From a virus, in the IMG/VR virus record IMGVR_UViG_3300047330_000021, positions 1 to 26,861 of that record: DNA of 26,861 bases. One strand, given 5' to 3'. Below, piece after piece: positions 1,214 to 25,250 of this stretch. The position numbers and the translations under genes are program-made. Position 1 is the stretch's first letter, and every line of letters begins with the position of its first letter. The notes under the pieces were generated by a model. The model did not search any database. It was given only the letters and a program-made list of their open reading frames with translations, and was not told the DNA's origin.

Positions 1214-1647
1214 ACGTCATACTTCTCCAGTCCAGAGCCTCTCATGATCTGTACAAGCTTTACTCCGTACAGAGGGTCAGTGGCGTAGACACCAGTGAGT
1301 GCGTGAGCAAAAGCTTCTGGATGCTCTACCAGGGCCATCGCATTGTGGTAGGCAGGGTGTGTAGCAAGGAGCTGACCATGGAAGTCGAAGGCGTCTTCAT
1401 ACCCTGTGAAGTCTTTGAACTTTGCAGTCGTCAAGACATACCGACCGTTGATGTACTCGTGAGTAGGTACTTCTGTGTACGGACCCTGCCCGTCCCATTT
1501 GTTGCCGAAGAAGTTAAACTTCCCTGTAACCTTCGTACCCCATGCACTTTCCAGACCAAACTGGGCTAGAGTTACAGAGGCAGGGACGAGCCACTTCCTT
1601 CGTACGGCGATAGCTGCATCAGTTATCTGTTGGGCTAGTTGTACCAA
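1210..1647 (-). CDS. Endolysin, N-acetylglucosaminidase domain (FlgJ/glucosaminidase family)
   Basis: The 145 residues are a single glucosaminidase-type domain. The catalytic Glu is probably Glu33 in TLAQFGLESAWG, and the family's N-F-F-G (residues ~45-48), typical mid-domain Tyr and Ala-Thr-Asp-Pro-x-Tyr (YATDPLYG) motifs follow. It would cleave the glycan backbone of peptidoglycan. No signal peptide is visible, so release probably depends on the holin immediately downstream. The start is TTG: AAGGAGG lies six bases upstream, and no ATG in this frame is better placed. The gene overlaps the 3' end of the inner-membrane spanin by about 29 bases in another frame. Annotation as a flagellar FlgJ fragment is possible, but the lysis context argues for an endolysin. 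Confidence 0.82.
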   Translation of the reverse strand: MVQLAQQITDAAIAVRRKWLVPASVTLAQFGLESAWGTKVTGKFNFFGNKWDGQGPYTEVPTHEYINGRYVLTTAKFKDFTGYEDAFDFHGQLLATHPAYHNAMALVEHPEAFAHALTGVYATDPLYGVKLVQIMRGSGLEKYDV

Positions 1648-5089: not shown

Positions 5090-5605
5090 TTACTTCCAAG
5101 GTTCGTCAGAGATATGTAGGTTCTTTTCGCGAAGGAGAAACTCTAGGCGAGCGAGGGCACCCCAGGCGACATGAGCTGCGTGAAGGATTCCCGAATCATT
5201 ATCCCAAGGACTTTCCGCTGACTCGGCGACAAGGTGGCGAACCATCGCATCACTATACCGTTCAAACCCTTCGGGTACTGTGGACCATCCCTTCCAGGAA
5301 TATTTAGCTGCTCCAAAAGTTGAAACAGTAGCAACCGCCCGCAATGCTCCGGGGAAGTAGTCAATGGCCCCTCGCCAGAGGCAGGGCTTGCCTGCATCAA
5401 GTTTGGCTCCACTTGCCTTGGGATCGATTCCGTAGGGGTCTCTTTCTCCGTTTCCAAGGGGCTTGTCTCCGTCTCCTTTGTAGGAGGCTGGTTCTGAAAG
5501 ATAGGGCTGGCACTTCTCGGTCCCGGACCCGATGGCTTTGCTTTGTACGCCATTACTCTTCACCTTCTGTTGTACCAGAGATTGGTGTATCTGTTCCGTC
5601 TGCAT
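5090..5605 (-). CDS. dATP/dGTP diphosphohydrolase-like protein (PF18909/DUF5664 type)
   Basis: The C-terminal ~110 residues carry the family pattern: S-G-A-K-L-D-A-G-K-P, then L-R-A-V-A-T-V-S-T-F-G-A-A-K-Y, G-W-S-T-V-P-E, R-Y-S-D-A-M-V-R-H-L and a helical D-N-D-S-G-I-L-H-A-A-H-V-A-W-G-A-L-A-R. These are the metal-binding and helical parts of all-alpha MazG-like nucleotide pyrophosphohydrolases, named in Pfam as the N-terminal domain of dATP/dGTP diphosphohydrolase. The N-terminal ~60 residues (Gly/Lys/Ser/Pro) look disordered. The ATG at 5605 is used because GAGGT lies eight bases before it; an in-frame TTG at 5662 has no better RBS. It overlaps a small upstream ORF by 53 bases. It would trim purine dNTPs to dNMPs, fitting the adjacent HD and RNR genes. 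Substrate is not provable here. Confidence 0.75.
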   Translation of the reverse strand: MQTEQIHQSLVQQKVKSNGVQSKAIGSGTEKCQPYLSEPASYKGDGDKPLGNGERDPYGIDPKASGAKLDAGKPCLWRGAIDYFPGALRAVATVSTFGAAKYSWKGWSTVPEGFERYSDAMVRHLVAESAESPWDNDSGILHAAHVAWGALARLEFLLREKNLHISDEPWK

Positions 5606-5669
5606 GATAATATACCTCTTGATCTGAACCAAGCCAGAAATAGAACTTGGAAGGGTCAACAAAATGCAT
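5553..5669 (-). CDS. Small protein of unknown function (38 residues)
   Basis: The frame reads M-H-F-V-D-P-S-K-F-Y-F-W-L-G-S-D-Q-E-V-Y-Y-H-A-D-G-T and ends I-S-G-T-T-E-G-E-E, a normal globular composition rather than shadow-like. The ATG lies four bases after the stop of the upstream 69-residue gene, so re-initiation or coupling is plausible, but its own Shine-Dalgarno is weak. Most of it overlaps the diphosphohydrolase N-terminus in another frame. No family is recognised. If the diphosphohydrolase starts further downstream, this ORF would account for the otherwise uncovered segment. Moderate-to-low confidence. Confidence 0.4.
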   Translation of the reverse strand: MHFVDPSKFYFWLGSDQEVYYHADGTDTPISGTTEGEE

Positions 5670-5673
5670 TTCT

Positions 5674-5883
5674 TTAAAAGGGTTCTCGTTCTTCGTCATT
5701 AGAGTCTTCAATCCTCAAATCCTCTTTGATGTCGTCAAGTTTATCGAGAATGTCTTCCTCGAAATAATAGATGATGTCTCGTACAGAGAGTGAAAGAAGT
5801 TCGGCTAACTCCCACCCTTCATACCTATCTGCAAGTGCCTGCTTGATACCTTCAGGGAGTTGCTCTTCGTTCATGATACTCAT
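5674..5883 (-). CDS. Small acidic phage protein of unknown function (69 residues)
   Basis: The protein (E-G-I-K-Q-A-L-A-D-R-Y-E-G-W-E-L-A-E-L-L, then V-R-D-I-I-Y-Y-F-E-E-D-I and an acidic tail) is predominantly helical. The R-Y-E-x-W-E-L-x-x-L-L pattern recurs in small uncharacterised proteins of podoviruses and siphoviruses; this is recognition, not proof. AAGGTG precedes two candidate Mets (5883 and 5874), either of which could be used. It lies seven bases after the exonuclease stop in the same operon. No enzymatic motif is seen. Confidence 0.6.
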   Translation of the reverse strand: MSIMNEEQLPEGIKQALADRYEGWELAELLSLSVRDIIYYFEEDILDKLDDIKEDLRIEDSNDEEREPF

Positions 5884-6603: not shown

Positions 6604-6976
6604 AAAAATAATGCTTTCCAATTTGTTTTATGAAACGACGTCCATGCCATTTGCCGGGATAGTTACGGAAGTACGTAGCTCCTCCAGTACTGTCTGGGCG
6701 TTCGACATCAACAGAGAAATCCTTCGGAGGTCTGCTAGATCGAAACTGCCCTCGCTTTCGGACAACTTCGCAAGTCGATGAGCCTGTCCTAGCTGATCTG
6801 TTAAGTATGACAGAAGATACTGCTGCTCTTCCTTCACGAGACTCTCCTCTTGCTTCGGCATACACAGCCGACTTAAGACACATCAATGCCGCGAGTGTTA
6901 GTTTTAACAACCTTCTTCTTTCTTTTGCGGCGACGTACAGGAGATGGAATAAATAGTCCGGTATGCCTGTCGACAT
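6596..6976 (-). CDS. Cell-wall hydrolase, SleB/Hydrolase_2 family
   Basis: This 126-residue protein carries the Hydrolase_2 pattern: L-K-S-A-V-Y-A-E-A-R-G-E-S-R-E-G (Glu41 and Glu45 in the family's E-A-R-G-E-S), then V-S-S-V-I-L-N-R, C-E-V-V, Q-F and a C-terminal G-A-T-Y-F-R-N...W-H. The family cleaves peptidoglycan glycan strands, as SleB does in spore germination. The N-terminal ~30 residues (R-R-R-L-L-K-L-T-L-A-A-L-M) have a basic-then-hydrophobic character that could act as a signal-anchor, though it merges into the domain. It overlaps the endonuclease VII gene by 104 bases and sits among nucleases, about 4.5 kb from the lysis cassette. It may serve as a second endolysin. A helical alternative-frame ORF inside it is not supported. 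Confidence 0.78.
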   Translation of the reverse strand: MSTGIPDYLFHLLYVAAKERRRLLKLTLAALMCLKSAVYAEARGESREGRAAVSSVILNRSARTGSSTCEVVRKRGQFRSSRPPKDFSVDVERPDSTGGATYFRNYPGKWHGRRFIKQIGKHYFYG

Positions 6977-7220
6977 ACTCTGCCATCTTCCTCAGTAAGT
7001 CTCCGTCTCGATGACGACCTATAACTCTATGGTTATGAAAAGAGCAAAGGATACCTCTGATCTCGCCTGTTACGTGGTCGTGATCTACTGCAAGATTTTT
7101 ACCCTCTTGCTCGGGTGTTTTACCACAGATGAAGCAACCCCCACCTTGGTCAGCCAGTAGCTGGTCATACTGTTCGACAGTGATGCCAAACTTTGTACGA
7201 AGATGGGAGGCTCTAGTCAT
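6873..7220 (-). CDS. Recombination endonuclease VII-like (HNH/treble-clef) nuclease
   Basis: The 115 residues begin with L-R-T-K-F-G-I-T-V-E-Q-Y-D-Q-L-L, the usual lead-in to endonuclease VII. The zinc pair CFICGK and the catalytic A-V-D-H-D-H-V-T-G-E-I-R-G (HNH/beta-beta-alpha-Me motif) follow. The second zinc half, normally L-C-x-x-C-N, is L-C-S-F-H-N here, so one Cys is replaced by His; metal binding may still work as C3H. The C-terminal tail is highly basic (R-R-R-K-R-K-K-K). Homologues resolve branched DNA before packaging or act as free-standing homing nucleases. The ATG follows the methyltransferase stop immediately, and a G-rich stretch (GGGGA) lies just before it. Its 3' end overlaps the wall hydrolase. 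Confidence 0.85.
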   Translation of the reverse strand: MTRASHLRTKFGITVEQYDQLLADQGGGCFICGKTPEQEGKNLAVDHDHVTGEIRGILCSFHNHRVIGRHRDGDLLRKMAEYVDRHTGLFIPSPVRRRKRKKKVVKTNTRGIDVS

Positions 7221-10127: not shown

Positions 10128-10586
10128 TCATATTTTTGCCGTACCAGAATCGATAAGGTATTTCATCGCTGCCTCCATAGTATGAATAGATTCTTTGAAA
10201 AGACCTAGAGCTCTGTTACAGTTATGACAAAGAAGCCCTCTTATTTTACCGGTGTCGTGGTCATGATCTACTACGAGCTTCATTACGTGATGATCTGCCA
10301 TAGTAAAACCTTCAGAACCACAAATTTTGCATTGATTATTTTGCTCTTCTTTCATTTGTTGGTGCATTTCAGGTGTAATTTTGTAGAGTCTTTTAAGATA
10401 CCAAGACTGTCTTGCAATTTCTTGACACTCGTCTGAACAATACTTACTCCTAGTGCCGGTAGGTGTGTAAAGGTCTTCACACAACTCACATCGTCGAGGA
10501 GTATGTTTATAATGACTTCGACTAGTGAGTTTCGGCCCAGGTGAGGCCGATGTTGACTGAGCATTCAATAGGGATTCTGTATTCAA
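10128..10586 (-). CDS. HNH endonuclease (endonuclease VII-type), overlapping the polymerase 3' end
   Basis: The protein has two zinc modules: an N-terminal C-E-L-C...K-Y-C-S-D-E-C treble clef, then C-K-I-C-G...V-V-D-H-D-H-D-T-G-K-I-R-G-L-L-C-H-N-C-N-R-A-L-G, the endonuclease VII/HNH core with all catalytic and zinc residues. A Y-K-I-T-P-E-M-H-Q-Q-M linker before the core is typical of this group. The frame is open to an ATG at 10643, which lacks a good RBS. TTG at 10586 has AGGAG six bases upstream and is preferred, giving ~152 residues and a 65-base overlap with the polymerase. Such nucleases are commonly free-standing homing endonucleases next to replication genes. A Holliday-junction role is the alternative. 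Confidence 0.8.
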   Translation of the reverse strand: MNTESLLNAQSTSASPGPKLTSRSHYKHTPRRCELCEDLYTPTGTRSKYCSDECQEIARQSWYLKRLYKITPEMHQQMKEEQNNQCKICGSEGFTMADHHVMKLVVDHDHDTGKIRGLLCHNCNRALGLFKESIHTMEAAMKYLIDSGTAKI

Positions 10587-12378
10587 AGAACTCTCCTGCT
10601 TTCTTAAAACACTTATGAAATATTTCGATAAGAGGTTCGACATGTTCAGTTAATACATCCCATTGAAACTCGTCATGAATATTTCCTACAAGAAGGGCGT
10701 CAAGGTTTTGTCTACGAATCTCTTGATGGATAAGGATCATAGCTTTCTTCATGATACGGCTTTCGTCTCCTTGTAGGAGATAACCAAGTTTTGTATGAGG
10801 CCGATCAACTATTACAGGAGTTCCGTCACAAAGGACGATACGACCTGTTCTATCTATTTGTTTCTGTAACGAATTAAGAAGCTCGTTTAATCCCGGAAAG
10901 TTATTCTGGAATCTTGATTTAACTTCTTTACCTGTGCTTGTAGAACCTCCAATGATTTGTCCGACTTTTGCATCTCCTGCCCCTAATAGATATGCATACA
11001 AAAATGTCTTTGCAACAGCTCTTGTTGAAAAACCTCCAACCTCTTGGTTGTAACTGTGTGGATCACCTCCGAGGACTGCATCAGTGAACTCCTTGTTGTT
11101 TAGATAATTAGCGAGAACACGTAGTTGGATGCCTTTAGCATCAACACCCACAAGACGGCGACGTACAGGATCACGAGTGACCCATAGATCACGGGCTTCA
11201 TAAGTGAATACGCCGTCCTCACCATACCGGACAACCTCTTCACCATCGACTTTCTTGATACGAACTGCAGGGATATTGGCAGTATTAGGAGCAGAATGTT
11301 TATAACGAAGAGTATTAGCAAGCCACAAAGACCCATGAATACATCCGGTGTCATGGTTGTACGCTTCCATCCAAGTGTTAATCATGTTGCCACGGGCGTT
11401 GTAATCCAACCATTCCGCGATAAGCTTTACTCCGGGGTTGTCAGTGCTGTTGACAAACCTTTCGAGTGAAGGTGCCAGCTTTCCCTTGACAACTGGTTGA
11501 GGTCTCCCAGTCTTAGTAACTTCGTCTTTTTCGTTGACCCAGCCGAGAGCAAGTAGTTTTTCCAATCTTTGATCTGGGCTTCCAATATTGAAAGAGACGT
11601 AATCAAAGACGTTGTATCCTCCGTCGTTGGAGATTGTGACTTGAGGATACTGCTCGATATGTCGGAGATAGTCCTTTGTATGGCTTCCATCCTTTTTATA
11701 TGCCTTTGCATATTTTCGTATGAAAAGAAGTTTAGCGGGCCATATTGTGTGGACTCGTCCAGCGATGTCATTTTCTATTCCTCTAACTTTGGAGTACAAC
11801 GCCATAGCCTCTGGGTAGTTAAAGGCAAAGCCATTCTTCTGTTGTTGTTGTATCAGTTGCCACGACCGATGTTCAATCTCAAGACCTGTGTCGGTCAGCC
11901 CTGCCTTGATACACCGATGCAGCAAAGCCATATAGACCTTCATACAGAGGATGGCGTCGTTCAGGCAATAGTCTTCCTGTTCTTGAGACCACTTCGAGAA
12001 GTCAGACCAATCTCCCTTCGGATGTTTGATACGAAGACCCCAAGCACCCAGACCATGGCCGTCAGGAATGGAAGGATTATACACCATCGACATGACAAGA
12101 GTGTCAACCAAGTCAGCAATAGTGAGAGAGGTGCCCAGAAGACGATTAAGAGTAGGGGCGTCATATCCAATAATGTTGTGGCCAACGAACCGACAACCTT
12201 CTTTCTTACGGGCATCGATCCACTCCCTTATATCCTTCGAAGTACGAAGACGTACCTCTTCCTTTGTATCAAGCTTGACTGCACAGAGGCACCAGATGAC
12301 CGTGCTTGGTATGAGATCGCCTTCGATGTCGACACTCCAAAGCTTCGACAGGTCGGCTGTCAGATACTTAAGAGCCAT
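10522..12378 (-). CDS. Family A DNA polymerase (T7 gp5-like) with 3'-5' exonuclease domain
   Basis: This 618-residue protein starts with an exonuclease domain: S-V-D-I-E-G-D near residues 15-21, V-G-H-N-I-I-G-Y-D-A-P near 65-75, and Y-C-L-N-D-A (YxxxD). The polymerase palm and fingers follow: motif A V-G-V-D-A-K-G-I-Q-L-R-V-L-A, motif B A-K-T-F-L-Y-A-Y-L-L-G-A-G-D-A-K-V-G-Q-I (the Lys and Tyr that contact dNTP are kept) and motif C N-I-H-D-E-F-Q (about 565-571). It ends I-G-L-T-W-A-E-T-H like gp5 relatives, so it is complete, though shorter than T7's ~704. The ATG at 12378 is preceded by GAGGA at eight bases. It replicates phage DNA with the primase-helicase just upstream. No sign of an adenine-discriminating variant was evident. 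Confidence 0.94.
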   Translation of the reverse strand: MALKYLTADLSKLWSVDIEGDLIPSTVIWCLCAVKLDTKEEVRLRTSKDIREWIDARKKEGCRFVGHNIIGYDAPTLNRLLGTSLTIADLVDTLVMSMVYNPSIPDGHGLGAWGLRIKHPKGDWSDFSKWSQEQEDYCLNDAILCMKVYMALLHRCIKAGLTDTGLEIEHRSWQLIQQQQKNGFAFNYPEAMALYSKVRGIENDIAGRVHTIWPAKLLFIRKYAKAYKKDGSHTKDYLRHIEQYPQVTISNDGGYNVFDYVSFNIGSPDQRLEKLLALGWVNEKDEVTKTGRPQPVVKGKLAPSLERFVNSTDNPGVKLIAEWLDYNARGNMINTWMEAYNHDTGCIHGSLWLANTLRYKHSAPNTANIPAVRIKKVDGEEVVRYGEDGVFTYEARDLWVTRDPVRRRLVGVDAKGIQLRVLANYLNNKEFTDAVLGGDPHSYNQEVGGFSTRAVAKTFLYAYLLGAGDAKVGQIIGGSTSTGKEVKSRFQNNFPGLNELLNSLQKQIDRTGRIVLCDGTPVIVDRPHTKLGYLLQGDESRIMKKAMILIHQEIRRQNLDALLVGNIHDEFQWDVLTEHVEPLIEIFHKCFKKAGEFFEYRIPIECSVNIGLTWAETH

Positions 12379-14998: not shown

Positions 14999-15151
14999 TC
15001 ACTCTCCTGTATATGTGGTGAGTTCGACATCGACGACGTCGTCTTCAAGGGCAAGAAAAGATTCGAGACCTTCCTGTATGATGAATGGTACTTTCAAGAC
15101 ACTGCCGTCTCTGTATGTGATAACTGCAATACGAGGAGGAAAATGGTTCAC
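14999..15151 (-). CDS. Small protein of unknown function (50 residues), coupled to the ATP-grasp gene
   Basis: Translation from GTG gives M-N-H-F-P-P-R-I-A-V-I-T-Y-R-D-G-S-V-L-K, V-P-F-I-I-Q-E-G-L-E-S-F, then L-E-D-D-V-V-D-V-E-L-T-T-Y-T-G-E. It looks like a small beta-sandwich or hairpin protein. The GTG overlaps the TGA of the ATP-grasp gene (GTGA), and its own stop is one base from the next ATG. It has GGAGG only after the start, so initiation probably depends on coupling to the ligase. Tight linkage suggests it might belong to the ligase pathway, for example as a peptide substrate or adapter; this is inference. Confidence 0.6.
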   Translation of the reverse strand: MNHFPPRIAVITYRDGSVLKVPFIIQEGLESFLALEDDVVDVELTTYTGE

Positions 15152-15945
15152 GGCATAAACTCCTTGAAGAAGTCGGCGTAGTCTTGGACGGTCTGACCTT
15201 CTAGTCCGGGAGCGGTATTGACTTCCAACACAGAGGCTTTCCCTCCTGTTGTAAGGATAACATCGACTGCACCAAAGTCGAGGCCCGTCGCTTCCAAAGC
15301 TCGCATAGCGGCAGACCGTACATGTAGCGGAACGTTAATTCCTTGGCGCTGGAAAACGAAACCGTTGGAGTGGGATCGGATGCGCCAGTCTGTTGGTTCT
15401 GTTCCATGCTTTGCTACTTTCTGTTGTTCTGCGATGACTACGAATGTGCCGTCAGAAGTCTTGCCGACGTGGATACGAAATTCTTTCTTCTTCTTCATGT
15501 ACCGTACATAGAGGGGAGCATCGACGAGATCGTCAGGAGTGTCAGCGATGACGATACCAACCCCTGAGTGGCCGTTGAGGACTGTCCGGCAGACGATCGG
15601 ATAAGCTCCTGCCGGAATGTATTCCTTGTCTGTCCAGAACTCAGGGACGATGTCGTCTTCGATTTCAGGGCTGACTGTGAAATCTTTCAGGAGTTGAAAG
15701 AACTTCAGTTTGTCAACAGCTTCTCTCACTTTTAGAGGACTATTCAAAATGGTGACTGTGGTATCCTCAGGGCAAGGGATGTGATGAAGGGAATGAAATT
15801 CAGAGGAACCCCAGTTAATAACGAGGGAATCATTCTTAACTTTCCACTTCGAGTTTGTGAGACGAAGAGCTTTGACGTCCAGGGCTTCGCAGAGAGTTTT
15901 GACACTCTTGCTTCCGGTTTTGTAAGGGAGAATTTTAACGGACAT
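15148..15945 (-). CDS. ATP-grasp ligase (RimK/D-Ala ligase-like)
   Basis: The 265-residue protein has an N-terminal Rossmann-like part, a nucleotide-binding region with I-V-C-R-T-V-L-N-G-H-S-G-V-G-I-V (Lys/Arg plus Gly-rich loop), L-Y-V-R-Y-M-K-K-K-K-E-F-R-I-H-V-G (edge strand with the R-x-H typical of peptide ATP-grasps), and the metal site V-L-E-V-N-T-A-P-G-L (Glu and Asn bind Mg-ATP). These enzymes join a carboxylate to an amine through an acyl-phosphate, often adding amino acids to a peptide or metabolite. It overlaps a GTG-started small gene and lies three bases after the amidoligase stop, with GAGGA before its ATG. With two amidoligases and two amidotransferases nearby it probably belongs to a multistep peptide-bond pathway. 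The substrate is unknown. Confidence 0.85.
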   Translation of the reverse strand: MSVKILPYKTGSKSVKTLCEALDVKALRLTNSKWKVKNDSLVINWGSSEFHSLHHIPCPEDTTVTILNSPLKVREAVDKLKFFQLLKDFTVSPEIEDDIVPEFWTDKEYIPAGAYPIVCRTVLNGHSGVGIVIADTPDDLVDAPLYVRYMKKKKEFRIHVGKTSDGTFVVIAEQQKVAKHGTEPTDWRIRSHSNGFVFQRQGINVPLHVRSAAMRALEATGLDFGAVDVILTTGGKASVLEVNTAPGLEGQTVQDYADFFKEFMP

Positions 15946-15947
15946 GA

Positions 15948-17090
15948 TTAATCCTCATCTGGGTCATAGTTCGACGTAGTTGGGTATTCTTCTGAAATGT
16001 CTGGAATAGAAAACCACTCATTGGCTTGAACAGTTGTAGGAGGTTGAGAAGTCACCGTCTGGTAAGAATGAGGAGCTGGTGCAGGTCCCAGAAGAGGCTT
16101 GTAGACAGGTCCATTAGCCAGAAGAGACTGCAACTCTACCTCTGACATTCCATAAGCCAAAGCTACATTTCCCGATTTCTTCTTAGGACGACCAAAAGGA
16201 TCGTCTTTAGATACTACAGGAACGAAAACAGACCAGTCACGACAGAAACAAATGTCCTGTGCCATTCTGATGCCTTCGTACAGGGAGTCAGAGATTTGGT
16301 CGTCGTTCCAGTCTATACCCTCACGGACGATATCATAGGTATCCCCGAGAATATTCCGCATGAAGAAGAGAGGGCCGCCGTACGAGAACGAGTTGCAAAC
16401 TTCCCGAGGATCAGGGAACTGCTCGGAGAACTCATAGAGACGACGATTGATAGCCACCCAATCAAGGATAAGTTGAGGATCGGTGGCACCACGAAGGTAA
16501 CGATTCTCCAAAGAACCAAACTTTGCCAGAGCCTGAATGTTCAGCCCGGCGTAATGAAGACCGTCATGGAGAGAGACATCGCCGTCACGCTGGATGAACT
16601 TCTTCAAGGTTTGTACGATGTTCGGAGCATCCTTGGCGCGAAGACAGAAGAGATTGCCGACACGATGATCGCCAGACCATTCTGCGAGGATTTCTTCGAG
16701 AGCAAACCACATCGCCGTAAATGAGGCAAGACGGTTGACATTCCAGAGACCGACGTTGAGATGGACGTGGACAGAAGTCCTGTTCGATTCATCCAATTCA
16801 GTTCCGTAATCCTTGAACAGAGTCCAGAGATGCTTGAGAGCATCCGGCACTTCGTCGAAAGTGATAGGAGCAGAAAGGACGTACTCGGCGTTATCTTCGC
16901 CACGGAGAGAATGATCTTCGTGGTAAGACCAGTACGGTTCGAGCTTGGCGCCTGACTTGTAGAACTTGTTGCCTTCGCATTCGATCTCCAGACCGATGTC
17001 ACCGAAGACCTTCCCTTTACTCATCAGGTTTCTGATTTCCTCACCGTACACTTTGTCTTTCAGTGCCGGTATAAAAACTGGATGAGCCAT
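15948..17090 (-). CDS. Amidoligase of glutamine-synthetase fold (Amidoligase_2-like)
   Basis: In this 380-residue protein G-D-I-G-L-E-I-E-C-E-G (about residues 30-40) supplies the paired Glu of the amidoligase metal site. Y-H-E-D-H-S-L-R-G (57-65) plus A-E-Y-V-L-S-A-P (68-75) and S-V-H-V-H-L-N-V (106-113) follow, matching the ordered motifs of the amidoligase family related to glutamine synthetase. L-E-N-R-Y-L-R-G is the downstream Glu/Arg motif. The chemistry is ATP-driven carboxyl-amine ligation. The C-terminal ~80 residues (Pro, Ser, Gln-rich) look disordered. ATG at 17090 is used because AAGGA is seven bases ahead and it overlaps the previous stop (TGATG); GTG at 17093 is the alternative. 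It stands second from the end of the ligase cluster. Confidence 0.82.
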   Translation of the reverse strand: MAHPVFIPALKDKVYGEEIRNLMSKGKVFGDIGLEIECEGNKFYKSGAKLEPYWSYHEDHSLRGEDNAEYVLSAPITFDEVPDALKHLWTLFKDYGTELDESNRTSVHVHLNVGLWNVNRLASFTAMWFALEEILAEWSGDHRVGNLFCLRAKDAPNIVQTLKKFIQRDGDVSLHDGLHYAGLNIQALAKFGSLENRYLRGATDPQLILDWVAINRRLYEFSEQFPDPREVCNSFSYGGPLFFMRNILGDTYDIVREGIDWNDDQISDSLYEGIRMAQDICFCRDWSVFVPVVSKDDPFGRPKKKSGNVALAYGMSEVELQSLLANGPVYKPLLGPAPAPHSYQTVTSQPPTTVQANEWFSIPDISEEYPTTSNYDPDED

Positions 17091-17845
17091 CACACAATCC
17101 TTCCAAAGTATTCAGTTGCTGCGATAACTTCAGTGAGATACTTGAAGTCGTCGCCAAGTTTCAACATCGTCTTGTCACAATGAGGACAGACACCGACGAT
17201 CTCGCTCTTGTATGCAACGAAAAGCATTCCGATAGGTCCTCGGATAAGGGCCAGTTTCCTGTCGAAAGCCACGCCACGATTGGCAATATCGGGATTATTC
17301 AAGGCTTCGAACGTCTCGTCGAGGCCAGGATAGTTACCCAATATAGTGTCTGCCAACTCATTTGACAAGAGGTTGATCTGACGATCTCGATAGGCATTCC
17401 CCCCGAAACAGACAGGAATCTGTGAGAGACTCTGGTTGTTAAGACCTTGTTCCGTACGGCGAGTAGGAGCCCTTTCGACATAGACACAACGGTCATCGAT
17501 GTTCACAAAACCGAGAGGAAATGGCCGGAACTTGTTGAAATGAGGAGAATTCATCTGTTTCCTGATTACCTTCGAATGAGGTTTCATCTGAAGGTACTGG
17601 TCACAGAGAGGTCCAACGGAAGGATTGTCTCCGCTGTTTTTCGAGATGCCATCGAAAGGGGAGAAACGCATCTCGGTTTCTTTGCCGTCACAGAGAGGTT
17701 CCATGTACACCCTGAAGATGTCGTCACCCATGTGGTTGGCAACAGCGAGGACGTGGTAAGGATGGCCGTCGTAGAGAATGACGGTACCCTTGATCCTCTT
17801 ATTAGCCTCAGGAAGAGACTCGTAGAAATTGGGATACTTCGCCAT
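17090..17845 (-). CDS. Uncharacterised protein between two amidoligases (251 residues)
   Basis: I do not recognise a catalytic domain. The N-terminal part (N-K-R-I-K-G-T-V-I-L-Y-D-G-H-P-Y-H-V-L-A) looks like a small SH3-like beta barrel. The middle has R-P-F-P-L-G-F-V-N and V-Y-V-E-R-A-P-T-R-R-T-E-Q-G-L, and the C-terminal part has V-C-P-H-C-D-K-T, one CxxC. The gene lies between the two amidoligases with coupling on both sides: the previous TAA is one base from its ATG, and its TGA overlaps the next ATG. Such constant placement suggests it is part of the ligase complex, perhaps a substrate-presenting or structural subunit. It could also be a ligase substrate. Both are inference. Confidence 0.6.
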   Translation of the reverse strand: MAKYPNFYESLPEANKRIKGTVILYDGHPYHVLAVANHMGDDIFRVYMEPLCDGKETEMRFSPFDGISKNSGDNPSVGPLCDQYLQMKPHSKVIRKQMNSPHFNKFRPFPLGFVNIDDRCVYVERAPTRRTEQGLNNQSLSQIPVCFGGNAYRDRQINLLSNELADTILGNYPGLDETFEALNNPDIANRGVAFDRKLALIRGPIGMLFVAYKSEIVGVCPHCDKTMLKLGDDFKYLTEVIAATEYFGRIV

Positions 17846-17846
17846 C

Positions 17847-18698
17847 TTAACCTTCCTTCACGATAGTTTTCAAAGGATAATTCCAACAGTACTCAAAATC
17901 CTGGTTACGGCGAGAAGAGTTGATAGCCTTGCAGAGGAGTTTGTTGGCATCACTACCACATTTCTCTGGCAAGTAGAGAACCGACATATCCCAGATGGCT
18001 TGGTTCATCCGATCCCAGACAGCTCTACGAAGAGATTTGCTCGTCAACCAGAAGTTGGACAGAACACGGTATTCGACGCCGTAATTCTTGTAGCGACATG
18101 CCCCTGCCTGTCCGTACAGGGAACGACGGATGTTGTCTTTGTCGGACAAGAGAGACCAATATCCGAGATACCAGTCGAGTTGCTTCACAAGGTCGGAGCA
18201 GTGATTGAGATGATCGATATCCTTCGAAAGATCGATATCCTGTGTCCAGCCGATATGGAGATGGCCGCTTGCCGTACGGACACGTTCGAGATCACCAACA
18301 GGTTTCGGGGAAGGATTCTGCATATTCGTCCAGCCGTTGAAGTCTGGGGTGCAGCCGAGAACCTTGGCAGAAGGAGGGATACGTTCCCATTCCTCGATGT
18401 CATACTTGACAGAAGGAACAATAGAGAGCTTGTACCCTTTCGGGAGGAAGGAGAGCAGACTTTTCATCACCTCGACGATGTTACGGTCGAAGTCTTCGAA
18501 GGTCTCGACTGGATCGATGTTGAACTCGGCGGCAGTGCCGTCGACTTGGATAGCTCCGTAAGGAACCTTGAAGGGCTCATCCTTCGTTCCAGGCAACAGA
18601 TCGTGTGCAGAGACGACACGACCTTCTGTGTTGAGAACAAACAATTCTGGGTCACACCCAAACTTGAATCCCGGCAGTGGTTTGATTGGAGCTTTCAC
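17847..18698 (-). CDS. COOH-NH2 ligase, phiEco32-like type 2 (PF14395-like)
   Basis: The 283-residue protein begins F-K-F-G-C-D-P-E-L-F (residues 11-20), the signature that opens the phage type-2 COOH-NH2 ligases. The other motifs follow in order: D-G-T-A-A-E-F-N-I (53-61), A-S-G-H-L-H-I-G-W (143-151) and G-V-E-Y-R-V-L-S-N-F-W (207-217). These are the glutamine-synthetase-fold metal and substrate residues. It should ligate an amine to a carboxylate using ATP, but its substrate has not been established in the literature I know. Start is GTG with AAAGGT at 7-8 bases; there is no nearby ATG. It is the first ligase after the class II amidotransferase and is coupled to the uncharacterised 251-residue gene. 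Confidence 0.85.
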   Translation of the reverse strand: MKAPIKPLPGFKFGCDPELFVLNTEGRVVSAHDLLPGTKDEPFKVPYGAIQVDGTAAEFNIDPVETFEDFDRNIVEVMKSLLSFLPKGYKLSIVPSVKYDIEEWERIPPSAKVLGCTPDFNGWTNMQNPSPKPVGDLERVRTASGHLHIGWTQDIDLSKDIDHLNHCSDLVKQLDWYLGYWSLLSDKDNIRRSLYGQAGACRYKNYGVEYRVLSNFWLTSKSLRRAVWDRMNQAIWDMSVLYLPEKCGSDANKLLCKAINSSRRNQDFEYCWNYPLKTIVKEG

Positions 18699-18720
18699 GA
18701 CTTAGACCTTTCTTGCTGAG

Positions 18721-19890
18721 TTAGAGATGGTTAAGGAGGGACTGGATACCTTCAGGAAGTGTAGGCAGTTCAGGCATGATGAGACGATTTTGTGACGAAT
18801 CGACTGAACATTTCGAACAGAGGATGATGTCGTCGTAGTTTACGACAGTGACGCCAACTGTATCAACATCGATGTCACTATTGCACCAAGAACAACCAAA
18901 GCTAGCCAGCTCATAAAATCGATCAATCGGGAGGTGTCCCGCGAAGGGATCGCTCTTGTCGGCGACGAGATTGATGAACTGGACGCCGTTTCGTCCGGTG
19001 CCGTTACCAGTCGAGCCAGGGGTTGTCGATGAGTTCTTGTTCGGTGTACTCGCCAAGTGTACGTTCGTGGTGCCATGGTGGTGAAAAGGGGTAGTCCCGG
19101 TGCTGTAGTGAGTTACAACCGGGGCAGGCTCCTTTCCCTTGAGTTGACCTTTCTTGGCGTATTCGAGAGGATAGTCCATGTCCGCCTTGTCGCGAAGCTT
19201 GTCGAGATCGAAGGTGTACAACTCGTCGATATCGGTGGCGAAGTAGGTATAACCCTCCGTCGACTGGGCCATGTCATACTTCGACGGCGACAAACCGATT
19301 GCAGCCTGTATCATAGGCCACTCCGACGCCCACATCACCTGCTGGTGGTTTTTCGAGACCGCCGTCCAAAAAGACCGCTCCTTGTTGCGGAGGAAGTTGA
19401 CAGTGTTTTCGTTCTTGTCGTACCAGACGAGTGCCCAGGCTCCTTGGAGGAGAGGGATTGTCTTGTGTACGCCAAACCGAGCGATATGGGTGAAGATAGC
19501 AAGGGAATCGACATCAAATTTTTCTCCGAGTTCGTCTTCCAACTCCATATGAGAGAGGATCGAGAGAGTTCCGTTGTGGGCACCGATGATGTGATCCACT
19601 ACGAAAGGATGGGCGTTATTGGCGTTGACCTTACCCTTCGTCGCTGCCCGGTTGTGGCCGATGAAGACAGAGCTTGCCGTACCCGAGAGGGCGGTGTCAA
19701 ACTTCTTGCTGTCGAACAGGTCGAGAGGATGACTGGCAATCTTGACGACATGGGTATCTTTTGTGGCATGTCGAACTGCTGCAAAACCAGTTGAGTCCAT
19801 GCCTCGGAAGTAGTCGTAGAGCATCAGGCGCTTCATTGTCGCCTCGTCGCGGTGTTCTAACACACCCATAAGTCCCACAAGCCCACACAT
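18721..19890 (-). CDS. Class II glutamine amidotransferase with C-terminal zinc ribbon
   Basis: Translation from the ATG at 19890 starts M-C-G-L-V-G, placing the catalytic Cys2 at the N-terminus after Met removal, as in Ntn-type amidotransferases. An upstream frame extension to 19905 would bury it and lacks an RBS; GGAG is seven bases before 19890. G-M-D-S-T-G-F-A, F-I-G-H-N-R-A-A-T-K-G and G-A-H-N-G-T are the Gln-binding and Arg/His/Asn motifs of the family. Residues ~270-300 are low complexity (His/Thr/Ser/Gly), and then C-S-W-C-N-S-D...L-C-S-K-C forms a zinc ribbon. There is no asparagine-synthetase domain, so it probably releases ammonia from glutamine for a partner ligase downstream (the COOH-NH2 ligase), or acts on a gamma-glutamyl group. 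Confidence 0.82.
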   Translation of the reverse strand: MCGLVGLMGVLEHRDEATMKRLMLYDYFRGMDSTGFAAVRHATKDTHVVKIASHPLDLFDSKKFDTALSGTASSVFIGHNRAATKGKVNANNAHPFVVDHIIGAHNGTLSILSHMELEDELGEKFDVDSLAIFTHIARFGVHKTIPLLQGAWALVWYDKNENTVNFLRNKERSFWTAVSKNHQQVMWASEWPMIQAAIGLSPSKYDMAQSTEGYTYFATDIDELYTFDLDKLRDKADMDYPLEYAKKGQLKGKEPAPVVTHYSTGTTPFHHHGTTNVHLASTPNKNSSTTPGSTGNGTGRNGVQFINLVADKSDPFAGHLPIDRFYELASFGCSWCNSDIDVDTVGVTVVNYDDIILCSKCSVDSSQNRLIMPELPTLPEGIQSLLNHL

Positions 19891-19914
19891 TGTATATCTC
19901 CACACAAATAATAC

Positions 19915-19967: not shown

Positions 19968-20429
19968 ATGGATAATACTGGCGAAAAGAAAGTCTATTTT
20001 AGATTTCCTTATTCTCAACTTTCCGAAGAGAAAAAACAGAAGCACAGAGATGCCCACAAAAGATGGGCGGAAAAACATCCTCGTACAAAGTACTACAAAG
20101 AGTACGACGAGAAAAGATATGAAATAAGAACACCAGATCGTATGCTGGCTTCTGCGAGAATGCGGTCAAAACAAAGGAATCTTCCTTTTGATCTTGTTAA
20201 AGGTGATGTAGTAATTCCTGAAACTTGTCCTATTTGCGACACTGAACTTCGATCAGCTAAAGGTATCAAAGGAGGTTCTCGTCAGAGCCCAACTCTTGAT
20301 CGAATCTGGTGTGACAAAGGTTACGTCAAAGGAAATATTGCCGTCATTTGTAAAGACTGCAACTCAAAGAAAGGTAATGCGACACCTGACGAATTACGTC
20401 GTATTGCTGATTGGATCGAACAAAAATAA
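19968..20429 (+). CDS. HNH endonuclease, free-standing, own promoter
   Basis: This 153-residue protein has a basic N-terminal part (E-K-K-Q-K-H-R-D-A-H-K-R-W) and a treble-clef nuclease core: C-P-I-C-D-T-E-L, then S-P-T-L-D-R-I (the H-position replaced by L-D), G-Y-V-K-G-N-I-A-V-I-C-K-D-C-N-S-K-K-G. This is the D-R-I...G-Y-x-x-G-N variant common in mobile phage HNH genes. AAAGGAG precedes its ATG. It is on the opposite strand from every neighbour, sits between the class II and class I amidotransferase genes and is AT-richer than they are, all signs of later insertion. Function is probably homing or defence against competing phage; a recombination role is possible. Confidence 0.82.
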   Translation: MDNTGEKKVYFRFPYSQLSEEKKQKHRDAHKRWAEKHPRTKYYKEYDEKRYEIRTPDRMLASARMRSKQRNLPFDLVKGDVVIPETCPICDTELRSAKGIKGGSRQSPTLDRIWCDKGYVKGNIAVICKDCNSKKGNATPDELRRIADWIEQK

Positions 20430-20640: not shown

Positions 20641-21483
20641 TCATACTTCCTGTGTAGGGACCTTCTCGGCTTGTTCCTTCATGAAACGCTCCATGATGTA
20701 CTCGGCTTTGAGACGTCGATGCTTCCCGCTAATTGCAAGATCGGTATTCAACTCGACGTAGTCATAGATCAGGTCGAGACACCACTTCGTGTATTCTGCG
20801 TAGCCACGGTATTCAGGATGTCCCTGTACGCCGATGCAGCATGTGTCACGAATGAAGAAAGCTTCGACGTCCTGATGGTTGCCGACTGCCTTCGTCGTGT
20901 CGTTGAACCAACGAGTCTTGCTGTTGTGGCCATGGGCGATGACTTCCATCCCAGGTCCCGAGATGACCATCTGATGATGGACAGACGAGACAGGCTGTAG
21001 ATACTTCTTGTTCTTCCTGTCGAAGATGCCGTGGTTCTGGTTGTGGCCGTCGACGTCCTGATAGAGCTTGAAGCCGTTCATCACTGCAAGGAACTGGGCA
21101 CCACGGCAGATACCGAACATAGGGATGCCGAGGGAGTGACAGAGGTTGTACAGATTGATGTCTTCCTTGTCACGCTCTTCGTCGTGTACGGTCGTCTCAT
21201 GTGGAAGCTCGCCGTACAGAGCAGGGTTGACGTCTGCACCGCCTGCGAAGACGACCAGATCAGCTTCTTCAGGAGTCTTGGCGTTGTAACACCGAGCCCG
21301 AGAGAACATCTCTGCGAACTGCCTCTTCTCAAAAAGGGAGCCCGTCAGATAAACCGACAACCACAGCTCCGGCATTTCCAGAGCTGAGTCCTTTTGCAGG
21401 ATGACTTTGTGTTGGCCTAGGAGCAGGCCGGGCGGACCATTGCTTGTAATGGTAGTCGTCCCAGTATCTTTCTGCATCGACAT
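20641..21483 (-). CDS. Class I glutamine amidotransferase (PuuD/peptidase C26-like)
   Basis: The 280-residue protein has the full class I triad: nucleophile Cys126 in F-G-I-C-R-G-A-Q, His222 and Glu224 in G-V-Q-G-H-P-E-Y. Oxyanion-side L-V-V-F-A-G-G-A-D-V-N-P (about residues 76-87) and S-S-V-H-H-Q-M-V (about 166-173) fit the gamma-glutamyl-gamma-aminobutyrate hydrolase (PuuD) subgroup. It would cleave a gamma-glutamyl amide or provide ammonia. The ATG at 21483 has AAAGGA eight bases ahead; the extension to 21522 is not supported. Its 5' 155 bases overlap another gene in a different frame. With a cyclotransferase and ligases nearby, editing of gamma-glutamyl groups is plausible. The C-terminal 30 residues are extra and charged. 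Confidence 0.85.
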   Translation of the reverse strand: MSMQKDTGTTTITSNGPPGLLLGQHKVILQKDSALEMPELWLSVYLTGSLFEKRQFAEMFSRARCYNAKTPEEADLVVFAGGADVNPALYGELPHETTVHDEERDKEDINLYNLCHSLGIPMFGICRGAQFLAVMNGFKLYQDVDGHNQNHGIFDRKNKKYLQPVSSVHHQMVISGPGMEVIAHGHNSKTRWFNDTTKAVGNHQDVEAFFIRDTCCIGVQGHPEYRGYAEYTKWCLDLIYDYVELNTDLAISGKHRRLKAEYIMERFMKEQAEKVPTQEV

Positions 21484-21643
21484 ATTCCTTATCCTTTTTT
21501 GTCGCTTGGATAGTTTTGACATCCATGTGATCCACTTCTTCTAACACAACCTCCGTCATAAGGGCGAAGGCCTCGTCGTGATAACCCCACTCCTTTAGCC
21601 CGATGGCACGATAAAGTTTGAACTGATTGAGGGCATTTCTCAT
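21329..21643 (-). CDS. Unknown protein overlapping the class I amidotransferase start (104 residues)
   Basis: The first half (M-R-N-A-L-N-Q-F-K-L-Y-R-A-I-G-L-K-E-W-G, then A-F-A-L-M-T-E-V-V-L-E-E-V) is helical and protein-like. The second half (W-S-A-R-P-A-P-R-P-T-Q-S-H-P, G-L-S-D-G-L-P-F at the end) is Pro/Ala/Gly-rich and lies within the amidotransferase gene in another frame over 155 bases. The ATG at 21643 has two G-rich Shine-Dalgarno-like stretches upstream (GAAGG close by, GAAGGG further away); an in-frame TTG is at 21661. No family is recognised. Both frames seem to be genuine coding in part, so one of the ends may be shorter than annotated. Confidence 0.5.
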   Translation of the reverse strand: MRNALNQFKLYRAIGLKEWGYHDEAFALMTEVVLEEVDHMDVKTIQATKKDKEYVDAERYWDDYHYKQWSARPAPRPTQSHPAKGLSSGNAGAVVVGLSDGLPF

Positions 21644-22395: not shown

Positions 22396-22824
22396 TTAGT
22401 CGTCGTCAGGGTCGTAGTCGTATTCCATGTTGAGGTGGTAGACCCGACAGATGTTGTCGGAGTTGCTATTCCGAACCTCGTTGACGACACGAAAACCTCT
22501 CTCCAGAAGCCTCTTCTCGTTGACGACGATCTGGTCCCCGTCTCCGTCATACCCACGAGCCAGGACAGCCTCTACGATGCCTCCAGGACGCTCTGCCTTG
22601 ATGTAGGCAAGGAACCTGTCCAGACGAGCCTCCACGGTCTCCTTAGGGGCTGAGGGAGTGAAGAAAGAGAGATAGGATCGAACCTCTGACCCAGAAGAGT
22701 CTTCGTCGTCGAATTCAGGCTGCTCTTCCAACTCCGGTTCCATCACCTGATTAGGATAGGACGGAAAGCCAAAGATGTGTTTGATGCCGCAGCACATGCC
22801 GTTATGACAGGAAATTCTAAGCAT
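22396..22824 (-). CDS. Uncharacterised CC-motif protein, paralogue of the following gene (142 residues)
   Basis: It begins M-L-R-I-S-C-H-N-G-M-C-C-G-I-K-H-I-F-G-F, has an acidic linker (E-F-D-D-E-D-S-S-G) and a C-terminal domain with G-G-I-V-E-A-V-L-A, L-L-E-R-G-F-R-V-V-N-E-V-R-N-S-N and C-R-V-Y-H-L-N. The last part resembles small phage domains with G-F-x-x-V-N-x-x-x-N-S-N and a final beta strand; I know of no function. AGGAGG lies nine bases before the ATG at 22824, so the longer frame to 22875 is not used. The ATG overlaps the cyclotransferase stop (ATGCTTAG). Tail is acidic (Y-D-Y-D-P-D-D-D). Confidence 0.62.
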   Translation of the reverse strand: MLRISCHNGMCCGIKHIFGFPSYPNQVMEPELEEQPEFDDEDSSGSEVRSYLSFFTPSAPKETVEARLDRFLAYIKAERPGGIVEAVLARGYDGDGDQIVVNEKRLLERGFRVVNEVRNSNSDNICRVYHLNMEYDYDPDDD

Positions 22825-23260
22825 AGCTCTTTTCCTCCTTCTTGGCCCGATTTTGCTCCGAGCGGTGCAAAGCACCTAAGGTGCGGAGCGAGGTATAATC
22901 CAGCCAGTCCGAGCCGTGGATGAGTTGATCGAGAGGAGGTGTCGTGTGGAACTCATAGATGAAGCCGTCGAGTCCGTCGATGTTGACGAGATGCCGTACA
23001 TAGAAGGAATGATCTGGGGCGTCAGGAATGAAGCCTTCGTAGTCATCCAGACGAGCAAGGCCGTCGTCATCGACCTGTATGACGTCACAGAGGACGGAAT
23101 AGCCGTCATCCGAGAGACGTAGGGCCGGGAACCATCCCATGTCGAATAAAAATCCCTGGACTTGGACTTGACGACCAGTGTCATGGATGAAATTCATCCA
23201 ATGCTGGCGCTCTTCTCGTTTTCGGAGAGTGCCGTAGGCGAAGACGTTGTGAGCTGCCAT
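22817..23260 (-). CDS. Gamma-glutamyl cyclotransferase (GGCT/AIG2-like)
   Basis: This 147-residue protein has V-F-A-Y-G-T-L-R (residues 6-13), the substrate-binding loop of the family, and L-D-D-Y-E-G (71-76) with the catalytic Glu75. Such enzymes cyclise a gamma-glutamyl group to 5-oxoproline, releasing the attached amine; F-I-Y-E-F in the second half fits the barrel. ATG at 23260 with AGAGGAGAG upstream overlaps the previous stop by one base (TGATG); GTG at 23263 is the alternative. The C-terminal ~12 residues (S-L-R-T-L-G-A-L-H-R-S-E) are encoded by a palindromic repeat that occurs elsewhere between genes, so the tail is a recent addition. It may edit or recycle products of the nearby ligases. 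Confidence 0.85.
   Translation of the reverse strand: MAAHNVFAYGTLRKREERQHWMNFIHDTGRQVQVQGFLFDMGWFPALRLSDDGYSVLCDVIQVDDDGLARLDDYEGFIPDAPDHSFYVRHLVNIDGLDGFIYEFHTTPPLDQLIHGSDWLDYTSLRTLGALHRSEQNRAKKEEKSYA
22854..22890 (-). repeat. Palindromic repeat copy A, inside the cyclotransferase gene
   Basis: Read on the - strand it is CGCTCC, GCACC-TTA-GGTGC-TTT-GCACC, GCTC, GGAGC. The outer GCTCC/GGAGC arms enclose three blocks of which the central GGTGC can pair with either neighbour. It matches copies B and C in inverted orientation and supplies coding sequence for the cyclotransferase C-terminus. Confidence 0.8.
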
Positions 23261-23430
23261 CACAATCTCTCCTCTTTGAATGCCACTTTCGTTGGAAGGT
23301 ATTTCTTTGTCACTTCATATATAGCAACGTCTTCGCCTTCTTGGAGACGGACGTCAGCTATCGAGAAAGCCTCTTCATACGAAGGAAACTCCTCAGAAGA
23401 GAAGACTTCGACCACGACAAATTTCGCCAT
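23260..23430 (-). CDS. Small protein of unknown function (56 residues)
   Basis: Translation gives M-A-K-F-V-V-V-E-V-F-S-S-E-E-F-P-S-Y-E-E, A-F-S-I-A-D-V-R-L-Q-E-G-E-D-V-A-I-Y-E-V, ending Y-L-P-T-K-V-A-F-K-E-E-R-L. The alternating strands and a helix suggest a compact alpha/beta domain. AAAGGA lies seven bases before the ATG, and the stop overlaps the cyclotransferase ATG (TGATG). It exactly fills the gap between two larger genes. The coupling to the cyclotransferase is the only functional hint; no family is recognised. Confidence 0.65.
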   Translation of the reverse strand: MAKFVVVEVFSSEEFPSYEEAFSIADVRLQEGEDVAIYEVTKKYLPTKVAFKEERL

Positions 23431-24137: not shown

Positions 24138-24305
24138 CTACTTTGACCCTAGCCGTGACCCTAGCCCTGACAGTGACCGTGATCGTGACCCTGACCGTGA
24201 TCGTGACCATGGCCCTGACAGTGACCGTGACCGTGACCGTGACAGTGACCGTGACAGTGACCATGACCCTGACAGTGACCGGTATCTTTGTTTAACTAAT
24301 CTCAT
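24138..24305 (-). CDS. Ser-X dipeptide repeat protein, copy 3
   Basis: Third of three tandem genes. Start [10 protein letters not shown], then alternating Ser with Leu, Gly, Trp or Arg for almost the whole length ([14 protein letters not shown]), 55 residues in all. AAGGAG lies six bases before the ATG at 24305, in a junction shared with copy 1 and 2, and the TAG stop overlaps the next gene's Shine-Dalgarno. The repetitive array keeps all three frames of this strand open, so the translated frame is inferred from the RBS and ATG. The protein would be basic, disordered or beta-like and resembles eukaryotic RS domains only in composition. Confidence 0.55.
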
Positions 24306-24306
24306 A

Positions 24307-24507
24307 TCAGTCTCCTTGATATGACCATGACCATGGCCATGACCATGGCCCTGACCCTGATCCTGGCCGCGACCCTGACCCTGACCATGACCGTGACCAT
24401 GACAATGACCATGACCATGACCATGACCGGGACCCTGACCATGACCGTGACCCTGACCCTGACCCTGCCCGTGACCGTGACCGGTATTTTTGTTTAGCCG
24501 ATCTCAT
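24307..24507 (-). CDS. Ser-X dipeptide repeat protein, copy 2
   Basis: Second of the tandem genes, 66 residues. It begins [13 protein letters not shown] and continues with Ser alternating with Gly, Arg and Trp ([10 protein letters not shown]) to Y-Q-G-D. TGAGG is five bases before the ATG, and the TGA stop is one base from the copy 3 ATG (TGATATG), a coupled arrangement. Copy 2 has slightly more Gly and Trp than the others. No similar phage protein comes to mind. Confidence 0.55.
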
Positions 24508-24514
24508 ATCAGCC

Positions 24515-24739
24515 TCACTTGATAAGCCCTGACCATGACCATGGCCGTGGCCATGACCCTGACCGTGACCATGACCATGACAGTGACCGTGATAGTGACC
24601 GTGACCCTGACCGTGACCATGACCATGACCGTGACCGTGACACTGACCCTGACAGTAACCATGACCCTGACAGTGACCGTGACCGTGACAGTGACGGTGA
24701 CCCTGACAGTGACCGGTACCTTTGTTTAACTGATCTCAT
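24515..24739 (-). CDS. Ser-X dipeptide repeat protein, copy 1
   Basis: First of the three genes, 74 residues, M-R-S-V-K-Q-R-Y-R-S followed by about 31 Ser-X units (X is Leu, Gly, Arg or Trp; one Pro and one Val) ending W-S-W-S-G-L-I-K. The ATG at 24739 has TGAGG five bases upstream. The stop ATCAAGTGA is the same octet that ends the preceding 89-residue gene, showing that the duplicated unit spans the gene junction. The in-frame extension to 24844 lies inside the other gene and is a shadow. Translation is inferred from the RBS; the protein may be a minor product of a DNA element. Confidence 0.55.
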   Translation of the reverse strand: MRSVKQRYRSLSGSPSLSRSRSLSGSWLLSGSVSRSRSWSWSRSGSRSLSRSLSWSWSRSGSWPRPWSWSGLIK

Positions 24740-24746
24740 ATCAGCC

Positions 24747-25016
24747 TCACTTGATAATACCAAAGCTCTCGATAGCAGACGTCTGGATATAAAGGGAGTT
24801 GGGCAGCTTTTGGGCATCTTTCCAAGTCTTGGTGTCAAATGCACCTGTTTCGTACACGATGAAGGGATTTTTGATGAGAATGCAGGTGTCGTTGACGCAT
24901 ACCAGTTCTCCTGTATAGATGTAGTTCATACAAAAGAAGGTGACAATCTGTCCCAACAGAGAAACGAGACCTTCGTTGGCGACTTCGACGACTTCGACAG
25001 TGACAGCTTTCTTCAT
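24747..25016 (-). CDS. Conserved-looking phage protein, unknown (89 residues)
   Basis: The sequence (V-G-x-like L-L-G-Q-I-V-T-F-F-C-M-N-Y-I-Y-T-G, E-L-V-C-V-N-D-T-C-I-L-I-K-N-P-F, I-V-Y-E-T-G-A-F, W-K-D-A-Q-K-L-P, Y-I-Q-T-S-A-I-E-S-F-G) is beta-rich and looks like a short barrel. It matches, by my recollection, a small protein family spread among phages without a known role. AAAGGA lies eight bases before the ATG. A pyrimidine-rich leader (25034-25061) and a palindrome (25072-25087) come before it. Its 3' end is part of the repeated junction of the following Ser-X genes, so the ancestral duplication probably began here. Confidence 0.68.
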   Translation of the reverse strand: MKKAVTVEVVEVANEGLVSLLGQIVTFFCMNYIYTGELVCVNDTCILIKNPFIVYETGAFDTKTWKDAQKLPNSLYIQTSAIESFGIIK

Positions 25017-25087: not shown

Positions 25088-25095
25088 ATAATCTT

Positions 25096-25135
25096 CGCTC
25101 CGCACCTTAGGTGCTTTGCACCGCTCAGGAGCATT
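25096..25135 (+). repeat. Palindromic repeat copy B
   Basis: CGCTCC (from 25096), then GCACC (25102-25106), TTA, GGTGC (25110-25114), TTT, GCACC (25118-25122), GCTCA, then GGAGC (25128-25132). GGTGC can pair with the GCACC on either side, and GCTCC (25097-25101) with GGAGC, so the element has two alternative folds. It lies between genes. Confidence 0.8.
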
Positions 25136-25158: not shown

Positions 25159-25210
25159 CTCTTTGATTTATAAGGATAATCTTTATCTTCGCTCTTAAGG
25201 AGCTTGTCTC

Positions 25211-25250
25211 CGCTCCGCACCTAAGGTGCTTTGCCACGCGAAGGAGCATT
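25211..25250 (+). repeat. Palindromic repeat copy C
   Basis: Same layout as copy B in the same orientation: CGCTCC, GCACC-TAA-GGTGC, TTTGC, then CACGCGAAGGAGCATT. The last block differs (CACGCGA for ACCGCTC), so the second internal pairing is damaged. Its last bases overlap the stop of the 50-residue gene. Confidence 0.75.

Follow-up and report, generated by a model that had tools for sequence, protein, structure and literature searches.

A gene for a small Sm/LSm-fold protein, followed directly by one or more genes for short proteins in which Ser alternates with other residues (Ser-X proteins), constitutes a two-gene module that is widespread among uncultivated phages. Both the module and the fold assignment of its first product are well supported, the former by gene association in IMG/VR and the latter by predicted structure. 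The analysis began from a single stretch of DNA, here called the window, which is a whole IMG/VR virus record of 26,861 bases (class: linear). The window carries one LSm-like gene and three Ser-X genes, SX1 to SX3, arranged head to tail on the minus strand (Table 1).

Table 1. Coordinates of the LSm/Ser-X unit and its repeats in the window.
Feature	Position	Strand	Description
LSm-like gene, first gene of the unit	24747..25016	-	89 aa; AlphaFold2 pLDDT 93.7; top Foldseek and VIA-align matches Sm/LSm, Z 10.8; 62 IMG/VR relatives
SX1	24515..24739	-	74 aa; head MRSVKQRYR + ~31 Ser-X units; net charge +14; 7-bp gap from LSm stop
SX2	24307..24507	-	66 aa; head MRSAKQKYR + ~27 Ser-X units; net charge +9; 7-bp gap from SX1 stop
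SX3	24138..24305	-	55 aa; head MRLVKQRYR + ~23 Ser-X units; net charge +14; TGATATG at SX2 stop, 1-bp gap
Degenerate hexamer array (TCANGG)n on minus strand	24153..24715		Tandem Repeats Finder, period 6, score 254
Junction 1	24730..24756	-	LSm 3′ end, Shine-Dalgarno-like GTGAGG, SX1 ATG head (alignment)
Junction 2	24498..24524	-	Duplicate of junction 1 (alignment)
Junction 3	24296..24321	-	Duplicate with 1-base deletion shifting SX2 stop to TGATATG (alignment)

The three Ser-X proteins share the head pattern M-R-x-x-K-Q-R/K-Y-R, followed by a Ser-X run. The array beneath them comprises 91.5 hexamer copies, and its score of 254 compares with 56 and 52 for the two other tandem arrays in the window. 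The coordinates, heads, and period-6 array all bear out the original prediction of three tandem Ser-X genes with a shared junction. That junction, TATCAAG(T)GAG..TGATATGAGAT.., is common to all three Ser-X starts. In the alignment, its first copy extends into the 3′ end of the 89-aa gene, in agreement with the proposal that it was duplicated from there, although casting the 89-aa gene as the source of the junction was too narrow, as the gene itself belongs to the unit. TGATATG-type contacts had been described for every junction and hold for SX2-SX3 only, whereas at the first two the stop is the TGA of AAGTGAGG and the ATG lies 7 bp further on. The window proteins are less regular than most of their relatives because Leu is also common at X (8 residues in SX1 and 8 in SX3).

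Several other features of the window were recorded. Minus-strand ORFs at 15148-19905, 20641-21522, and 22817-23263 look, by eye, ATP-grasp, amidoligase-like, and glutamine-amidotransferase-like, and a gamma-glutamyl cyclotransferase (phrog_2520) was also recorded; together these ORFs form a possible peptide-ligation or modification cluster. HNH-endonuclease-like ORFs, also judged by eye, are scattered at 6873-7220, 10128-10643, and 19968-20429. A near-identical palindromic stretch (GCTCCGCACC-TTAGGTGC-TTTGC..GGAGCATT) occurs at approximately 22852-22895, 25095-25135, and 25205-25247, once in reverse. Its copies lie in or near intergenic regions, and it may represent a terminator or a small mobile hairpin.

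The structure of the 89-aa protein was modeled with high confidence (AlphaFold2 pLDDT, 93.7), and the best PDB matches of the model were Sm/LSm proteins (Foldseek probability, 1.00; best E value, 2e-3). VIA-align gave a Z score of 10.8 and an rmsd of 2.2 over 68 residues, with 428 chains at Z ≥8. A second LSm subfamily (YLIRTVT...WIADTGRF...NEVEPF) came to light through loci found by their arrays; its model (pLDDT, 91.3) also matched Sm/LSm proteins best (Z, 9.9). The predicted models of both subfamilies show the short helix and bent five-stranded barrel of the Sm fold. The LSm assignment rests on this predicted fold, since the Pfam LSM family (PF01423) matched 2/40 LSm-like members below significance (best E value, 0.071). 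Neither subfamily had a significant match in Pfam, PHROGs, or NCBIfam, where phrog_7000 and phrog_11844 appeared at E values of 0.001 to 0.005, and a PDB sequence search gave no match.

To quantify the association between the two genes, loci were collected from either side, with the caveat that the counted loci share ancestry and are not independent events. A search with the 89-aa protein returned 62 IMG/VR loci, with Ser-X genes directly after the LSm gene in nearly all of them. Among those with at least 200 bp of downstream sequence, a Ser-X gene was present in 52/55; of the three exceptions, L052 and L193 (apparently a single contig represented twice) contain a short run of Ser-Gly, and L050 carries a Ser-X gene upstream. 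In the reverse direction, an LSm-like gene was present in 126/141 of the loci found by array DNA only, among the matches listed and with at least 450 bp of upstream sequence, and these represent 125 distinct LSm sequences; the other 15/141 lacked an LSm match in the analyzed stretch. Every other neighbor cluster was present in at most 8/228 loci among the matches listed, except for a cluster of antisense ORFs (19 loci) at the position of the LSm gene.

The two genes are typically separated by tens of bases or joined by a stop/start overlap. Across 41 LSm-to-Ser-X gaps, 16 were at -4 (ATGA), 6 at -1, and 4 at 0, such that the Ser-X start overlaps or touches the LSm stop in 26/41. Most loci carry one Ser-X copy, often two, and up to nine strong arrays among the matches listed, with approximately 14 copies in one locus (L196) by a looser count. 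Contigs L196, L217, and L299 hold roughly 6 to 14 Ser-X genes in tandem, and every gene has a separate head. One contig (IMGVR_UViG_3300042309_000358) bears Ser-X arrays at two loci, L045 and L238, with an LSm match in L045 only.

In 9/58 cases the contig ended no more than 160 bp downstream of the LSm gene, compared with 1 case upstream of it; the arrays therefore seem to disrupt assembly and have probably been undercounted. The two ends of IMGVR_UViG_3300047333_000105 (46.5 kb; loci L009 and L070), a close relative of the window, both fall in the LSm/Ser-X region, and the contig therefore probably derives from a circular genome that was interrupted at the array. Near-identical phage pairs, to which the comparison of indel lengths was limited after divergent pairs were discarded, differ by array indels of 90 bp and 42 bp. 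Array length therefore shifts by whole hexamers, although repeat assembly error could also produce such differences.

Scanning IMG/VR for array DNA with the Ser codons TCA, TCT, TCG, and AGC yielded at least 312 strong arrays in at least 228 loci. Across the 312 arrays among the matches listed, X was Gly 2,658 times, Arg 2,484 times, and Trp 2,354 times. An array usually employs one Arg codon and one Ser codon, and the choice varies between phages: Ser is TCA, TCT, TCG, or AGC, and Arg is AGG, CGG, AGA, or CGT. Among the matches listed, the mostly single Arg codon is AGG in GC-poor phages (mean GC, 0.41) and CGG in GC-rich ones (0.54), and the Gly, Arg, and Trp thirds are near equal in both types; arrays that switch from TCN to AGC serine encode the same protein. 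Within arrays among the matches listed, entropy was 1.54 bits at the first base of X versus 0.11 bits at the synonymous third base of Ser. Because DNA patterns select uniform arrays, the calculation was redone for arrays located by way of the LSm gene, where no array pattern was used, and gave 1.48 versus 0.16 bits (X = Gly 308, Trp 238, and Arg 214). An ATG lies 4 to 16 codons upstream without an intervening stop for 85% of arrays in the Ser frame versus 6% in each other frame, and a stop falls within three codons of the array end for 87% versus 14% and 25%; the way in which array boundaries were set somewhat favors the Ser-frame value. The X letters follow one another almost at random, with repeats slightly avoided and matches at lags 4 to 6 a little in excess.

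These codon and frame patterns indicate that the array is selected as protein. The original prediction had left open a real, possibly RNA-binding Ser-X protein and an incidentally translated DNA element. The former gains from the encoding of the same protein by different codons, the conserved starts, and the Sm-fold gene alongside. The latter is not supported: from phage to phage the Arg and Ser codons vary, yet protein composition stays constant, which is not the coding-independent motif of an iteron or DNA repeat. Missing from that reading were the Sm-like nature of the 89-aa protein, its near-constant presence, and the wide spread of the unit.

The heads of the Ser-X proteins differ by LSm subfamily, being either basic or MNxAILRxGFD-like, whereas the tails are alike. 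Head net charge is +3.4 for type 1 versus +0.4 for type 2 (p = 1e-18, ignoring shared ancestry), and the hydrophobic fraction is 0.22 versus 0.44. Tail Gly/Trp/Arg fractions are closely similar, at 0.35/0.28/0.27 (type 1) and 0.27/0.30/0.35 (type 2). Head chemistry that tracks the LSm subfamily beside a closely similar tail fits a head that docks on the LSm protein and a tail that does the work; the head thus probably docks the Ser-X tail onto its LSm partner.

Sm-like proteins are already known in phages, but we know of no earlier Ser-(Gly/Arg/Trp) partner encoded by a hexamer array, and the LSm/Ser-X module appears undescribed. Neither the Ser-X proteins nor the LSm/Ser-X pair corresponds to a Pfam, PHROG, or NCBIfam family or was found in a cultured phage, and a literature search of partial coverage found no paper with such Ser-X peptide strings or describing a phage pair of an LSm and a repeat protein. 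The earlier statement that no phage gene like Ser-X had been described is consistent with these family, phage-record, and literature searches. Compared with phage records, the window DNA had no megablast match and two matching records in a distant mode, one from a Manatee Spring phage; tblastn in INPHARED matched only two uncultured Manatee Spring records. In one, the complete circular genome MW202573, LSm gene UOF78857.1 overlaps a 43-aa Ser-X gene, UOF78858.1, by 4 bp, and both are annotated only as hypothetical. In MW202825, also from Manatee Spring, a type-1 LSm gene precedes Ser-X genes in a region without annotation. At about 5521-5852 of the corresponding locus (L551; MW202825.1), SLHDALPI and FPTRRSSDL look like sequencing-adapter contamination, and the record is flagged UNVERIFIED_CONTAM. 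Plasmids gave no match, a host search gave three matches in binned MAG contigs, and 398 genomes of one phylum gave none, a search that is uninformative on the host. Representatives of recurrent neighbors match exonuclease VIII, Erf, SSB, DNA methyltransferase, and helicase families, and such recombination/replication-type neighbors suggest that the module may be expressed early in infection.

The unit resembles several known systems in part. Like the Sm/LSm/Hfq superfamily, the phage protein is predicted to combine a short helix with bent antiparallel strands, and its top PDB matches are Sm/LSm proteins, but it lacks a significant Pfam LSM match and its low-complexity partner is encoded by a separate gene. 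The eukaryotic proteins SmB, SmD1, SmD3, and LSm4 carry Arg-Gly-rich tails, and the phage pair likewise unites a (predicted) Sm fold with low-complexity, basic, dipeptide-rich sequence; in the phages, however, the tail is encoded as its own protein, every second residue is Ser, and Trp joins Arg and Gly. No open frame with both an LSm match and a Ser-X array was found among the loci examined, and with it no fused protein or same-chain tail of the RG-tail Sm type. SR/RS-domain proteins and FUS-like sticker-spacer domains are of low complexity, with Arg and aromatic residues and Ser/Gly spacers. Ser-X proteins share these traits but lack an RRM, have RS in about a third of dipeptides, use Trp for Tyr, and are encoded by bacterial viruses. 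The four window proteins had no RRM match at E ≤10, and thus none pairs an RRM with an RS-rich domain; the Ser-X proteins matched only weak RS-like or basic profiles below the cutoff. Hfq is described as an Sm protein that works with a disordered C-terminal domain (PMC5606850). The Hfq tail is acidic and part of the same chain, whereas the phage tail is separate, and the phage protein received no Hfq assignment. Phage small Sm-like and DUF6948 proteins in BFVD show weak Foldseek similarity to the type-1 model (E values, 4e-4 to 0.06) at an identity of only 5 to 21% and with no Pfam match.

Sm, LSm, and Hfq proteins form rings and bind RNA, often aided by disordered tails, and contacts between Arg and aromatic residues with Gly/Ser spacers drive condensation of RNA-binding proteins. 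With this background, we infer, at a probability of about 50%, that an RNA-binding LSm protein and a separate low-complexity Ser-X tail form RNA-protein assemblies. The first gene would produce a small Sm/LSm-fold protein, expected to assemble into a ring and bind RNA. The second, which is presumably often translationally coupled to the first and sometimes present in 2 to about 14 tandem copies, would produce a short Ser-X protein whose head, some 10 residues long, corresponds to the LSm subfamily and whose tail, probably disordered, has Ser at alternate positions and Gly, Arg, and Trp in similar proportions at the others. The head would carry the tail to the LSm ring in trans, where Arg/Trp stickers and Ser/Gly spacers may add multivalent RNA binding or condensation, and several tandem genes could raise or vary the tail supply. 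Early in infection, the pair would then collect phage or host RNA or shield it; possible ends include shielding phage transcripts, trapping host RNA, and evading RNA-targeting defense. A more specific version is offered tentatively: a phage ribonucleoprotein condensate, in which the LSm ring recruits a fast-changing Ser plus Gly/Arg/Trp polymer through the subfamily-specific head, and the compartment protects phage RNA or traps host RNA early.

Other explanations of the module were weighed against RNA-protein assembly. The Ser-X and LSm proteins might instead bind or condense single-stranded DNA beside phage recombinases and act in recombination or replication. Some modules do lie near exonuclease VIII, Erf, SSB, and helicase genes, the window Ser-X proteins are strongly basic (+9 to +14), and the Sm protein Hfq is described as also interacting with single-stranded DNA (PMC10392684). 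We nevertheless consider a role on DNA unlikely, as the Sm fold points to RNA first and each recombination gene is near just a few of the 228 loci among the matches listed. A toxin or lysis factor is rather improbable as well. Under that explanation, the Ser-X proteins would be Arg/Trp-rich membrane-active peptides that the LSm-like protein controls or neutralizes. Many toxin-antitoxin pairs comprise a short, cationic, Trp/Arg-rich product and an overlapping partner gene, traits that the Ser-X genes share, but near-equal Gly and strict Ser alternation are atypical of membrane-active peptides, a toxin would not be expected in many tandem copies, and an ORF that looks lysozyme-like by eye is already present in the window (1210-1647).

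The two remaining explanations set protein function aside. If the array acted as DNA or RNA (an iteron, an LSm-binding RNA scaffold, or a recombination site) and its translation were incidental, then the regular 6-bp spacing with GG every 6 nt, the near-uniform codons within an array, and the frequent contig ends in arrays (9/58) would be accounted for. This explanation is strongly disfavored and very unlikely, because the hexamer differs between phages that keep the same protein composition, and the Ser frame is the only one that the starts and stops fit. A free-N DNA motif was considered separately; it would give about half Arg at X, with AGG and CGG mixed within an array. Arg makes up about a third, and at least two AGG and at least two CGG codons occur together in 28/312 arrays among the matches listed; with codons so rarely mixed, the motif was therefore rejected. 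Hexamer slippage, leaving a low-complexity product tolerated without further function, would explain why indels between near-identical pairs are multiples of 6 and why matches are slightly in excess at lags 4 to 6. Drift would not be expected to produce the LSm association, the conserved heads, or the near-equal Gly:Arg:Trp shares that divergent phages have in common, and a mere by-product is accordingly hardly credible.

Ser alternating with Gly, Arg, and Trp is among the simplest protein sequences known to us and is here tied to a predicted Sm fold in a compact gene pair present in many phages. If the pair acts on RNA, it would represent a phage strategy not seen before. It would also offer a minimal natural test case of the cooperation between RNA-binding rings and low-complexity tails, since its natural variants number in the hundreds and retain composition while their order is scrambled.
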